DNA of 64,000 nucleotides from Pseudomonadales bacterium (GTDB lineage Bacteria; Pseudomonadota; Gammaproteobacteria; Pseudomonadales; Azotimanducaceae): positions 1 through 64,000 of the forward strand of contig JADHNU010000005.1 in the NCBI GenBank assembly GCA_016779325.1, given 5' to 3'. The notes beneath the pieces are model-generated. The model did not search any database and was not told the origin of the DNA. It saw only the letters and a list, made by a program, of their open reading frames with translations. A program made the translations under genes and the position numbers. This document shows positions 59,309-64,000 of the stretch, one piece after another (positions within the stretch are counted from its first letter, which is position 1; each line of letters begins with the position of its first letter).

Positions 59309-59968
59309 CTAAAGCAGGCTGGGGTGGGGGTTAAAGTATTGGCGGGCGCTCAGGGGCCCCTTGATACGCGTCAAAAGGGCATCAAAGTGCTCCGAATTGT
59401 TCACCCAATCGAGTTCGGCTGCGTTCACGATAAGGAGTGGGGCCTCATCGTAGAAATGAAAGAAGCGGGCGTAGGCGTCGCTTAGGCCCTCTAAATAGGC
59501 ATCGTCTAAGCCTTGCTCCGCAGGGCGTCCACGCAAGCGAATGCGATCTTGGAGCACGCCCAGGGGCGCCTGGAGGTAAATCACGAGGTCGGGCTTCGGC
59601 GCTTCCACCGTGAGGCGCTCATAGACCGCGTTGTAGAGCGCGAGTTCCGCCCCATCCAAGGTGAGTTCCGCGAAGAGCCGGTCCTTGGCCATCAGATAGT
59701 CGGCAATGCAGCGCGGCTTGAAGAGATCGTTCTCCGTTACCCCCTGAAGTTGCTGGGCCCGTTGCAGGAGGAAATGGAGTTGGGTGGCTAGGGCATTGCG
59801 ACCTTGGTCGAGGTAGAAGCGTTCGAGGAAGGGGTTATCCTCGGCCTTTTCGAGTAGCACCTGATAACCCAGGGCCTCCCCCAGGCGCAGCGTAAGGCTG
59901 GTTTTCCCGACGCCAATGGGCCCCTCCACGGCGATGCTGGCGGGCGCGGAGCTTTCCCCCTGGGTCAT
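59309..59968 (-). CDS. Deoxynucleoside kinase family protein
   Basis: The 219-residue kinase has P-loop GPIGVGKTS near residue 16, the ED.NPFLERFY segment of the dCK/dGK family, the DR..E-like LMAKDRLFAELTL, and the lid region RIRLRGRPAEQG. It phosphorylates a deoxynucleoside, exact specificity unknown. It overlaps pcnB as ATGA. It occupies the position where folK is usually found between pcnB and panB; no folK is present in the window. Confidence 0.85.
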   Translation of the reverse strand: MTQGESSAPASIAVEGPIGVGKTSLTLRLGEALGYQVLLEKAEDNPFLERFYLDQGRNALATQLHFLLQRAQQLQGVTENDLFKPRCIADYLMAKDRLFAELTLDGAELALYNAVYERLTVEAPKPDLVIYLQAPLGVLQDRIRLRGRPAEQGLDDAYLEGLSDAYARFFHFYDEAPLLIVNAAELDWVNNSEHFDALLTRIKGPLSARQYFNPHPSLL

Positions 59969-61356
59969 GCCTCGCCGCCCTGGTTGGGCCCCCGGCGCCG
60001 CCGGCGGCGGCGCGGACGCCGCCCCTCCGCAGGATGCTCGTGGGGGACGGGCGTTTCTCGGTCCGCTTGATAGGCCGTCCACCATGCGCCCATGCCTTCC
60101 GTGGCCTCGCCCACGCCTTCCCGGAGGACGAGGAAATCGTAGGCGGCGCGAAAGCGCGGGTGGAGCACCAACTTCTCTGCCCGTCGAGCGCCGCGCTGGA
60201 GCCGGCTCTGGAGCGTCCAGGTTTCCTGCATGAAAGTGGTGAGGCGGCGGGGAATGGTGGTGTGTTGCTGCTGGGCGTGAAGCACATCCCGCATGGCTTC
60301 CTGAAGGGCTTCCAGAGGACGAAGGCCTTCGCTCTTCAAGGCGCTGGCGCGGGTTTGGAGCGGTGCCCACAGAAACGCTGCCAGGAGAAAAGCGGGGGTA
60401 ACGGGCTTGCCCTCCACGATGCGGCTATCGGTGCTGGCGAGCGCGGCTTCCGCCAGGGCCAGGGCCGAGGGCTGAGCTTGGAAAGCCGCTTCCACTTCCG
60501 GGAATAGCAACCCGAAGAGGCCGTGCTGGCGGAGCAGGGTTAGGCTCTTGACGCCGTGGCCGTGGAGAAAGAGCTTGCCCACCTCATCGAAGAGTCGTGC
60601 CGCGGGAACATCGAGCAGGCGTGCCTTGACCGGGGCGATGGCCGCCTCCGTGGCGAGCTCCAGGGTAAAATCAAGCTTCGCCGCAAAGCGGATGGCCCGA
60701 AGCATGCGCACCGGATCCTCTCGGTAGCGGCCCTCCGGCTCGCCGATGAGGCGTAGCTGTCGCGCCTTGAGGTCCTTAAGGCCGCCTGCAAAATCGTAGA
60801 TCGCGAAGTCCGCGGGCGTGTAGTACAAGGCGTTGATGGTGAAGTCCCGACGAAGCGCATCGTCCTCAATGGTGCCGTAGACGTTGTCGCGCAGGATCAT
60901 GCCCTCTTCGCTCAGGGCCGACGCCGGCTCATCGCTATGCCTGTCTCGTCGTTTGGGAAGGGCGCTGGCCGCCACCGTAGGCGCCTGGGTGCCATCGCTC
61001 AGGGCCCGGAATGTGGCTACTTCGACAATTTCCCGGCCAAAGCGCACGTGAACCAATTTGAAGCGTCGCCCAATCAGCTGGGCGTTGCTGAATAGGTCGC
61101 GGACCACCTCTGGGGCGGCGTCCGTGGCCACGTCGAAATCCTTCGGCTCGCCACCGAGGAGCAAGTCTCGAACGCCGCCGCCCACTAAGAAAGCCTGATG
61201 GCCGGCGCCTAACAAGCGGTAGAGCACCTTCATGGCGCCGCTGCTAATGGCCTTTCGGGAGATGGGGTGGTCTTGCCGGGGAACGATTGTCGCGTGCGTG
61301 GTCGCGATAGCCGGTGGCCGGGGTGCGTCCTGAGCTTGGGGTCCGTTTTCCGTCAC
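59965..61356 (-). CDS. pcnB: Polynucleotide adenylyltransferase (poly(A) polymerase I)
   Basis: The 463-residue enzyme has the nucleotidyltransferase motif LVGGGVRDLLLGGEPKDFDVATDA, RRFKLVHVRFG, RRDFTINALYY, EGRYREDPVRMLRAIRFAAKLDF and a basic C-terminus (RRPRRRRRRRGPNQGG). It adds poly(A) tails that promote RNA decay. The start is uncertain. GTG at 61356 gives a length like E. coli PcnB and leaves a possible TATGCT -10 box (61390-61385) upstream; an in-frame ATG at 61419 would overlap that box. Confidence 0.9.
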   Translation of the reverse strand: MTENGPQAQDAPRPPAIATTHATIVPRQDHPISRKAISSGAMKVLYRLLGAGHQAFLVGGGVRDLLLGGEPKDFDVATDAAPEVVRDLFSNAQLIGRRFKLVHVRFGREIVEVATFRALSDGTQAPTVAASALPKRRDRHSDEPASALSEEGMILRDNVYGTIEDDALRRDFTINALYYTPADFAIYDFAGGLKDLKARQLRLIGEPEGRYREDPVRMLRAIRFAAKLDFTLELATEAAIAPVKARLLDVPAARLFDEVGKLFLHGHGVKSLTLLRQHGLFGLLFPEVEAAFQAQPSALALAEAALASTDSRIVEGKPVTPAFLLAAFLWAPLQTRASALKSEGLRPLEALQEAMRDVLHAQQQHTTIPRRLTTFMQETWTLQSRLQRGARRAEKLVLHPRFRAAYDFLVLREGVGEATEGMGAWWTAYQADRETPVPHEHPAEGRRPRRRRRRRGPNQGGEA

Positions 61357-61457
61357 CGATGCTGGCGTCCCACAAAAAGGAAAAGCATAGCAGGCTTGAG
61401 GCGTTGCAAGGACCCTCATTGTGCGGCCAAAGCGGTGGGTAAGTTCCTGAAAAGAAA

Positions 61458-61488
61458 AAAGGGAAAGGCCCCCACGACCTTTCCCTTT
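61458..61488 (-). terminator. Intrinsic terminator of the putative sRNA
   Basis: AAAGGGAAAGG and CCTTTCCCTTT form an 11-bp stem with a 9-base loop. On the minus strand TTTTTTC follows. It would end a transcript coming from the sigma-54 promoter before it reaches pcnB. Confidence 0.85.
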
Positions 61489-61736
61489 CATGCTGCCCTT
61501 GCCGATTTCTTCTTTTCACCCTTTCGGGTGCGGCTGCGAGGCAGCGACGGGCCCTATCCCGTCCAGGCAAGGCGCTGGAGTCAAGCGCCGGTGCCCTTAG
61601 AGGACAACTCGACTATCTTTCGATAGGGCCCTGGCTCTTCGGCTTTCGGGCGGCGGTCGAAACCGCTGAGTTGACCTCCGATCAGCCCCTCCCCCCCAAG
61701 AGTTGGGCTGAAAAGCAACGCCCCACGCGTCGCTGT
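61458..61736 (-). ncRNA. Putative sigma-54-dependent structured small RNA (CrcZ position)
   Basis: The region has no credible open frame, a sigma-54 promoter at one end and a strong terminator at the other, giving about 280 nt. Stems seen are CAGCCC/GGGCTG (61683-61710), GCGGT/ACCGC with UUCG loop (61653-61666), CTATC/GATAG with GAAA loop (61613-61626), GGCGCT/AGCGCC (61571-61589), GACGGG/CCCGTC (61546-61563), GCTGC/GCAGC (61533-61545) and CACCC/GGGTG with GAAA loop (61517-61530). A single A-rich stretch GAAAAGAAGAA (61506-61516) matches the AAnAAnAA Hfq/Crc-type motif. Its place between cbrB and pcnB equals that of Pseudomonas crcZ, which has several such motifs. Function is inferred. Confidence 0.6.
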
Positions 61737-61745
61737 AAGTAACAA

Positions 61746-61761
61746 AGCGAAGACCGTGCCA
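61746..61761 (-). promoter_or_regulatory. Sigma-54 promoter of the putative sRNA
   Basis: On the minus strand TGGCACGGTCTTCGCT has the invariant GG (61760-61759) and GC (61748-61747) exactly 10 bases apart, and a perfect -24 TGGCACG. The -12 is TCGC rather than TTGC. Initiation is expected near 61736. Confidence 0.65.
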
Positions 61762-61779
61762 GTTTTTGCACTAATCTGG

Positions 61780-61915
61780 TGTTACCAATAATTACAATGA
61801 CTTACGTGTATTCTGGCGAGCTAAGGGGGCTCGAACGGGGAAAGTGTTACCGGAAAAAGTGTTACTTAGATGCCTAAAAGTGTTACTTCCCAACAAAGTG
61901 ATCCGTTTGGTAACA
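61780..61915 (-). promoter_or_regulatory. Cluster of TGTTAC/GTAACA activator sites (putative CbrB enhancer)
   Basis: TGTTAC occurs at 61780-61785, 61845-61850, 61860-61865 and 61881-61886, and the inverse GTAACA at 61910-61915. Two copies are 21 bases (two helical turns) apart. A further GTAACA lies at 61739-61744 near the start site. As I recall, CbrB of Pseudomonas binds TGTTAC/GTAACA half-sites upstream of crcZ. The main cluster lies 110-180 bases before the predicted start, a normal enhancer distance. Confidence 0.65.
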
Positions 61916-61927
61916 CTTCGCGGCGGG

Positions 61928-63304
<1,377 letters not shown>

Positions 63305-63354
63305 AACCAGCTGTCCAGCGCTTCGAAGCGGCCTGATGGTAGCAGAATCCGGGC

Positions 63355-64000
63355 TTAGTCGAGGGCCTCGGATAGGAAGAGGGGCCCCTGGGGGAGCTGC
63401 GTGGGATTCCAGTGCGCCTGGGCCACCTGGAGCTGTTCCTCGCAGGGAAGGGCTGGCGTGCTTGGGAGATTAAGCAGGGCGAGCGCCTGAGCCAGATTGG
63501 CCTCCGGTTGGGTAAGGTTGAGCCCCGGGGCTCCGGTTTGCTTGGCCCATTTATGCCCCGCGGCATCGACGATGAGCGGAAGATGAAGGTAGCGCGGGGT
63601 GGGTACGCTAAGGCATTGCTGTAGATAAATTTGCCGTGCCGTGGAGGTCAGGAGATCTTCCCCTCTCACGATGTCCGTGACCCCAAGGGCGCCGTCGTCC
63701 ACAACCACGGCCAACTGGTAGGCCCACAGGCCATCGCGGCGACGGATCACAAAGTCCCCGGGGTCCCTTTGCAGCGCACTGACTTGAAGGCCCCGGAGGC
63801 GGTCCCGAAAGGCGACCTGATCCGCGCCCAGCGGGGGCGCGCAAAGGCGAAGCGCGTGGGCGCCGGGGGGCGGATTTCGGCGGTTTCGGCAGGTCCCGGG
63901 GTAGGGGCCGCCCTGGGCGCGAAGGACCTTTCGCGGGCAGTCACACTCATAAACAAGACCCGCCTCCTGCAGCGTGGCCAGGGCGGCTTCATAGGCGGCC
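63355..64000 (-). CDS. gluQ: Glutamyl-Q tRNA(Asp) synthetase, C-terminal part (5' end outside window)
   Basis: The frame continues off the right edge. The visible 214 residues include the zinc site YECDCPRK...YPGTCR and DIVRGEDLLTSTARQIYLQ. HKWAKQTGA follows, a KMSKS-like loop. The enzyme glutamylates queuosine in tRNA-Asp. The stop is TAA at 63357-63355. It lies upstream of cbrB on the same strand; in Pseudomonas gluQ also precedes the cbr genes, but with cbrA in between. Confidence 0.9.
   Translation of the reverse strand, partial: AAYEAALATLQEAGLVYECDCPRKVLRAQGGPYPGTCRNRRNPPPGAHALRLCAPPLGADQVAFRDRLRGLQVSALQRDPGDFVIRRRDGLWAYQLAVVVDDGALGVTDIVRGEDLLTSTARQIYLQQCLSVPTPRYLHLPLIVDAAGHKWAKQTGAPGLNLTQPEANLAQALALLNLPSTPALPCEEQLQVAQAHWNPTQLPQGPLFLSEALD

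Follow-up and report, generated by a model that had tools for sequence, protein, structure and literature searches.

The small RNA CrcZ is an RNA sponge that controls the choice of food (carbon). In P. aeruginosa, it is described as a transcript of 407 nt that contains six A-rich stretches (PMC4063720). For P. putida CbrB, another study gives the forward subsite F1 as TGTTAC and the reverse subsite as GTAACA, with contiguous sites lying 20–25 bp apart (PMC6296734). The Cbr system and CrcZ are called unique to Pseudomonadaceae in a 2022 review (PMC8871633). No account of CrcZ-locus RNAs outside this family was found in the literature, which was covered in part and with few subscription journals.

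The stretch of DNA analysed here, referred to as the window, comprises 64,000 nucleotides of a contig from a bacterium of the order Pseudomonadales. The original prediction proposed that a locus near its end encodes an undescribed relative of CrcZ with a different mechanism. This proposal is supported by the presence of a single A-rich motif and a compact fold at the crcZ place, together with the control elements known from crcZ. Other structured small RNAs with a sigma-54 promoter are the Vibrio Qrr RNAs, which depend on the NtrC-family activator LuxO. The RNA of the window resembles them in being structured and in having a promoter and an activator of these types, but the activator itself, the genomic place, and the sequence are different, and no Rfam match to Qrr-type families was obtained at the window or the scanned loci. 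The reading preferred here, to which a probability of roughly three in four is given, is that the crcZ position is occupied by a retooled small RNA, and that the sponge was retooled after the loss of cbrA.

Gene Order and Control Elements

Sequence and domain searches gave the order CbrB-like activator gene, folded RNA gene candidate, and pcnB, all on the minus strand (Table 1). The predicted position between a CbrB-like gene and pcnB was borne out by the NtrC-type domain architecture of the upstream gene product and by the TIGR01942 match downstream. The start of the RNA was inferred at 12 nt past the GC of the −12 element, and its end was set at the U tract.

Table 1. Features of the crcZ-like locus, listed in the direction of transcription (window positions).
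Feature	Positions	Strand	Basis and remarks
gluQ-like gene, tRNA-synt_1c domain (named gluQ by synteny)	63355..63999	-	adjoins activator upstream; cbrA absent in between
CbrB-like sigma-54 activator	61928..63304	-	receiver altered; GAFTGA present in AAA+ domain; C-terminal end TETALAEKLGISRKSLWERRQRLGIPR conserved
TGTTAC, CbrB-type forward subsite	61910..61915	-	in 4/5 genus genomes; aligned G003 stretch begins downstream of the site, G003 site count one lower
GTAACA, CbrB-type reverse subsite 1	61881..61886	-	invariant, 5/5 genus genomes
GTAACA, reverse subsite 2	61860..61865	-	invariant, 5/5; 21 bp from reverse subsite 1
GTAACA, reverse subsite 3	61845..61850	-	invariant, 5/5 genus genomes
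GTAACA, promoter-proximal site	61780..61785	-	invariant, 5/5 genus genomes
Sigma-54 promoter TGGCACGGTCTTCGC, TGGCACG-N3-TTCGC, −24/−12, GG-N10-GC	61747..61761	-	sequence; GG and GC invariant in 5/5 genus genomes
Small RNA gene candidate, about 281 nt	61455..61735	-	conservation in 5 genomes, fold z −5.0, pair retention
Hairpin 1, loop GUGGG	61714..61734	-	predicted fold and alignment; pairs invariant
Hairpin 2, contains G-rich segment	61682..61711	-	predicted fold and alignment; pairs invariant
GGGGAGGGG, G-rich segment	61686..61694	-	its GGGGAGGG core common to four other genera at the same locus
Multibranched domain including UUCG-capped stem	61599..61679	-	predicted fold and consensus
Stem 8	61565..61596	-	3 pairs with changes on both sides
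Stem 9, loop AUAGGG, complementary to upstream CCCUAU	61546..61563	-	predicted fold, alignment, consensus
3' domain with A-rich stretch	61492..61545	-	predicted fold and consensus
Single AANAANAA (Hfq/Crc-type) motif AAGAAGAA	61507..61514	-	a single match per genome in all 5 of the genus
Intrinsic terminator, 14-bp stem and U6	61455..61489	-	sequence, fold, consensus
pcnB, conserved part	59965..61233	-	TIGR01942 473.9 bits against a cut-off of 305.65; true start probably lies further upstream

The GG-N10-GC sigma-54 promoter with TGGCACG is present as described at 61761–61747 (minus strand), and its −12 block reads TTCGC, not TTTGC. By sequence, the locus thus carries a sigma-54 promoter with CbrB subsites upstream, as crcZ does. 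Three features go beyond the original prediction: the four GTAACA sites and one TGTTAC site upstream, the missing cbrA, and GGGGAGGGG at 61694–61686. The arrangement of sites and promoter was searched for in the five genomes of the genus and gave six matches, five of which are the RNA locus itself and one of which occurs in G000 alone; the reversed pattern gave four.

A Compact Predicted Fold of the Genus

The predicted fold of 61735–61455 has an energy of −141.4 kcal/mol, compared with −114.6 ± 5.4 kcal/mol in 200 dinucleotide shuffles (z −5.0), none of which was as low. With a query of 471 bases, the RNA region was found in 5 of 58 genomes, namely its own and all four others of the genus, at 82–84% identity, and the 53 genomes of other genera gave no match. 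A lack of conserved stems or promoter in relatives had been named as an outcome that would count against the RNA; both are kept in all four of the other genus genomes. The alignment shows no variation in the GTAACA sites, the promoter GG and GC, the terminator, and most of the stems. Across the five genomes, the consensus has 94 pairs in 13 helices, so the earlier count of at least seven hairpins was a fair one, and 99.6% of the alignment cells are paired. Four pairs are changed on both sides, a modest amount of covariation from five close sequences; this number was reached by 1 of 500 shuffles, and structures slid along the alignment pair in 37–48% of cells. The strong terminator was also confirmed, as a 14-bp stem with U6. 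Both GAAA loops and the single UUCG loop that had been described are present in the window; the UUCG loop alone is invariant in the genus, and the GAAA loops are UACG or CAUG and GUGA, GUAA, or GCAC in the relatives.

The segments GGGCCCUAUC and GAUAGGGCCC (window 61631–61622 and 61558–61549, minus strand) are perfect 10-nt complements within the RNA, with one A–U pair changed to G–U in relatives. It is possible that these segments, with the loop of stem 9, form a switch or a loop–loop contact. Two candidate functions were rejected. A match of 33–35 nt between window 61667–61633 and G000:C24:7053–7085 (L002; 89% identity, E 6e-5), antisense to a gene of the same genome named pilC-like by eye, was treated as chance because it was not reported in the four sister genomes. 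A small open reading frame after the G-rich segment has no conserved start codon by eye, and an indel breaks its frame between members of the genus.

With a covariance model of the genus core (61680–61546), all six sources from the genus scored at least 138.9 bits. Of the 26 sources in total, the one that ranked next had an E value of 0.061, on the opposite strand of the same gene. Convincing matches to this model were confined to the genus, and a fold shared between genera was not found with it. The sister genus g56, represented by six genomes, carries a structured RNA unlike that of the window, 326–404 nt long and with 76 predicted pairs, 10 of them changed on both sides; its longest run of invariant columns, by eye, is GGGGGGAGGG. 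Because the fold is not common to the genera, the kinship of their RNAs rests on the locus and the promoter. As far as can be judged from sequence, what the RNAs of the GGGGAGGG genera have in common is an address, a switch, and a G-rich segment, with no detectable common fold.

Reduced Number of A-Rich Clusters

The statement that only one A-rich stretch of the Hfq/Crc type is visible proved correct: there is one AANAANAA match, AAGAAGAA at 61514–61507. The number of such clusters is six in Pseudomonas otitidis (the control, L103), five in both Marinobacter and Halomonas, and three in each of four cbrA-positive genomes of the same family. Among the genera without cbrA, it is two in g19, one in the genus of the window, and zero in g23. 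The two g19 genomes carry two A-rich clusters and the G-rich segment together, and this RNA is possibly an intermediate between the A-rich and G-rich types.

The same gene order, the same promoter form, and RNA stretches rich in AANAANAA are seen in Pseudomonas, Marinobacter, Halomonas, and others. Loci with cbrA–cbrB, a sigma-54 promoter, and A-rich clusters were observed in L047, L090, L060, L078, L091, L092, L110, L111, and further records, from Marinobacter, Halomonas, Pontibacterium, Nitrincola, Marinobacterium, Porticoccaceae, Oleiphilaceae, and Cellvibrionaceae. In four loci (L044, L056, L061, and L071), at least two site clusters with sigma-54-like promoters stand in a row between cbrB and pcnB, which suggests tandem copies of CrcZ-like RNAs.

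No known Rfam family fits the RNA, as judged from scans of the window and of 13 loci. In window positions 60000–63500, CrcZ was not matched up to an E value of 5, and the lone match (M23, E 1.9, other strand) is at the level of chance. Over the 13 loci, up to an E value of 0.5, the CrcZ model matched L103 (3.4e-91), Marinobacter L047 (2.7e-10, below the gathering score), and the same-family A-rich L019 (0.025). There was no match at this threshold in six GGGGAGGG loci (L008, L009, L010, L018, L026, and L032), nor in the A-rich L090 (Halomonas), L012, L013, and L017. Since these A-rich loci are also without a match, a missing match to the CrcZ model is unspecific and says little, and the cluster count tells more.

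Compared with CrcZ (RF01675, together with CrcY and CrcX), the RNA of the window is alike in its position between cbrB and pcnB, its sigma-54 promoter, its similarly spaced TGTTAC and GTAACA sites, its own terminator, and the presence of Hfq in the genome. It differs in length, at about 281 nt rather than the 407 nt of the P. aeruginosa transcript, and in having one A-rich motif instead of six. The RNA also has a compact fold and the GGGGAGGGG segment, and the CbrA partner was not found in the genome, where the CbrB receiver is altered. Kinship to CrcZ is supported by position, promoter, activator, and the graded loss of A-rich clusters, and not by likeness in sequence or structure to the Rfam CrcZ model. 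A mechanism different from that of CrcZ is likely.

The alternative that fares best is a minimal sponge of the CrcZ type, which would titrate Hfq through the single A-rich motif and the U tail and would be folded for stability only. The AANAANAA motif is kept in 5/5 genus genomes, an Hfq gene was found by a search of the window genome, and the promoter and place are those of crcZ, so that some Hfq titration is possible. However, one cluster compares with six in the Pseudomonas control, and 5 of the 15 GGGGAGGG loci have none; the loss of such repeats speaks against the RNA acting chiefly as an Hfq/Crc sponge. Crc was not found in the two genus genomes searched (E 1e-15), although across the family the presence of Crc is not correlated with the type of RNA. 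As an explanation of the RNA type, Crc was rejected because G028, G058, and G062, genomes of the same family with A-rich RNAs, lack a Crc match at 1e-15, while G026 and G030, with GGGGAGGG RNAs, have matches of 47% and 41%; weaker matches (27–38%) were not separated from exonuclease III. A minimal sponge also leaves the GGGGAGGG segment unexplained, and this alternative is considered unlikely.

Three-Way Association over 115 Loci

The survey covered 115 loci, made up of the window, the fetched loci of the family, and the best 80 of 560 confirmed named loci. Named loci were searched for with the last ~100 residues of the regulator, which were aligned over 23 family members and are conserved there. 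A promoter was counted when the GG-N10-GC form occurred after cbrB with a CbrB-type site at most 150 nt upstream. Two entries in the tally, L038 and L149, apparently come from one genome.

Loci with cbrA and a promoter numbered 62. At least three A-rich clusters were present in 57 of them, and GGGGAGGG in 0/62; the remainder were L055 with no cluster, L074 with one, and L061, L086, and L092 with two each. The loci with a promoter and without cbrA numbered 15, from five genera of one family. All 15 carry GGGGAGGG, three of them (L171–L173) having been found through the GGGGAGGG pattern and the other 12 not being selected on it, although L178–L180 were fetched for sharing the genus of a pattern match. 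None of the 15 has more than two A-rich clusters, and five have none. A further 20 loci have neither cbrA nor a promoter that could be found, and 10 have cbrA and no promoter by these criteria, among them L146, which has an A-rich RNA stretch and a promoter with imperfect sites. Four loci are without a CbrB match, and four were unscored for cbrA; three of the latter have a promoter, with 4, 4, and 13 A-rich clusters and GGGGAGGG in 0/3. The pcnB gene lies downstream in 58/62 cbrA-positive promoter loci, in 15/15 cbrA-less promoter loci, and in 20/20 cbrA-less promoterless loci. L055 (Ectothiorhodospira) and L074 (Sedimenticola) have cbrA, CbrB-type sites, and a promoter, but no pcnB in the fetched stretch.

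Of 206 family genomes, 11 contain the pattern GTAACA–promoter–GGGGAGGG, always at this locus, and none contains its reversed control. Across the order, the pattern occurred in 7 of 390 genomes, four of them in the family. The three matches outside the family were judged to be chance because the reversed pattern gives two. In a quick tree of 56 regulators, built from the AAA+ and DNA-binding part, the window genus groups with g56 (SH-aLRT 89), and the GGGGAGGG label needs three changes. The GGGGAGGG state may have a single origin. The association is clear in the loci surveyed, but it comes from one family and may reflect one or few events.

A Regulator Whose Kinase Was Not Found

At the 15 GGGGAGGG loci, a gluQ-like gene lies less than 600 bases from the regulator and cbrA is absent between them, whereas the four same-family A-rich loci have cbrA. 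Whole genomes were searched with the 625-residue C-terminal part of Pseudomonas CbrA, which gave E values below 1e-150 in the four same-family A-rich control genomes. In 12 GGGGAGGG genomes, cbrA was not found, the best match (E 4.7e-40) being to the kinase region alone. In the genus genomes G000–G004, which are 79–95% complete, there was no match to CbrA at 1e-20. Some of the genomes searched are incomplete (G002, 79%; G026, 72%).

The receiver lysine is replaced by R or Y in 14/14 GGGGAGGG-type regulators, compared with K in 23/23 comparison regulators (22 with cbrA, and L072, which was unscored), and 11 of these 14 retain the receiver Asp. The 19 cbrA-less regulators without a promoter retain K in two cases. 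Among the cbrA-less loci, L159–L170, L045, L048, L049, L054, L062, and L068 have receivers that often lack the usual Asp and Lys, and a sigma-54 promoter with CbrB-type sites is missing downstream of these regulators. In the CbrB-like protein of the window, the Asp is kept, the Lys is changed to Arg, and the acidic pocket is altered by eye, which departs from a canonical phospho-receiver; perhaps it is not a normal phospho-receiver. The AAA+ domain and C-terminus are those of CbrB, and because the GAFTGA motif and the DNA-binding end are intact, the regulator can probably still work with sigma-54 at the same sites. The claim that the locus has the same place and control logic as CrcZ therefore stands for the place, the promoter, and the CbrB sites, but not for the input, which must differ from that in Pseudomonas, given the altered receiver domain and the search for CbrA that found none.

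The G-Rich Segment and a Possible Mechanism

GGGGAGGGG is identical to a strong Shine–Dalgarno sequence. As the sole segment common to the five genera, it is pointed to as the active part of the RNA. When single RNAs are shuffled with their dinucleotides preserved, 0.7–6.5% of the shuffles contain GGGGAGGG. The mean predicted unpaired probability of the segment is 0.22–0.23 in the window genus, where it is mostly paired, and 0.22–0.56 in the other genera. Nothing was found in the literature on GGGGAGGGG and small RNAs.

Complementary targets were sought through AGCCCCTCCCC in the five genus genomes G000–G004, which contain 94 sites compared with 50 for the reversed sequence (9/7, 20/16, 20/9, 21/9, and 24/9 per genome). 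This excess perhaps comes from Shine–Dalgarno use on the other strand. Besides the RNA gene, there are 89 sites, and 24 of 54 site clusters occur in at least two genomes. The sole cluster shared by four of the five genomes is GGGGAGGGG just ahead of the ATG of a putative gene encoded on the opposite strand. As raw counts without a chance estimate, GGGGAGG stands 3–13 nt ahead of a potential start codon at 22 of the 89 sites, and the complement lies near an ATG at 8 of the 89. Among these sites, no conserved complementary target of the G-rich segment was found.

According to the preferred reading of a retooled RNA, cbrA was lost and the CbrB-like activator would act without phosphorylation by CbrA. 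The RNA would be transcribed from the sigma-54 promoter and would no longer mainly soak up Hfq (or Hfq/Crc) through A-rich repeats. Instead, it would act in trans through the Shine–Dalgarno-like G-rich segment, pairing with RNA of the CCUCC type. The candidate partners are a C-rich mRNA or small RNA, or the anti-Shine–Dalgarno tail of 16S rRNA, probably with the help of Hfq. Free pairing is counted against by the prediction that the segment is mostly paired in the genus, where it would have to be opened by Hfq or by the partner. This pairing step is tentative and is given somewhat less than an even chance. A bolder and rather doubtful version is that a new type of regulatory RNA arose when the bait was swapped: after the loss of the kinase, a protein sponge that mimics A-rich ribosome-binding regions would have become a structured decoy that mimics the Shine–Dalgarno sequence itself and captures C-rich RNAs or the 16S tail, with CbrB independent of phosphorylation.

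The segment might instead be bait for a protein. RNAs that titrate CsrA by mimicry of its binding sites are known, and the segment could in this way bind a CsrA/RsmA-like regulator of translation, a kind of protein that recognises GGA close to ribosome binding sites. The segment does contain GGA, and by eye it can lie within loops or beside them in g56, g19, and g23. However, the recognition core of CsrA is ANGGA, which GGGGAGGGG lacks; conserved GGA motifs are few per RNA by eye, and the segment is largely paired in the window genus. A decoy for such a protein is regarded as still less likely than the minimal sponge. That the region is a leader or spacer element of pcnB, structured for read-through control and not a free RNA, would suit its position directly before pcnB on the same strand, but is very improbable given the strong terminator between them, the conservation of most stems upstream of that terminator, and the 20 cbrA-less loci that have pcnB without such a promoter.

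Implications for the Family and the Order

The three-way association of cbrA loss, GGGGAGGG gain, and few A-rich clusters at promoter-bearing loci is new. The survey also gives A-rich RNA candidates after cbrA–cbrB in several other families of the order, contrary to the description of the system as restricted to Pseudomonadaceae. Within one family, a series is available that combines a missing kinase and an altered receiver with few A-rich clusters and another conserved segment. At this locus, it seems that the address and the on-switch of a sponge for carbon choice were kept, the sponge repeats lost, and a G-rich tag gained, so that the RNA probably works in a new way. Together, the survey and the one-family series make it testable how a global regulatory RNA switches its mechanism while its address and switch persist.
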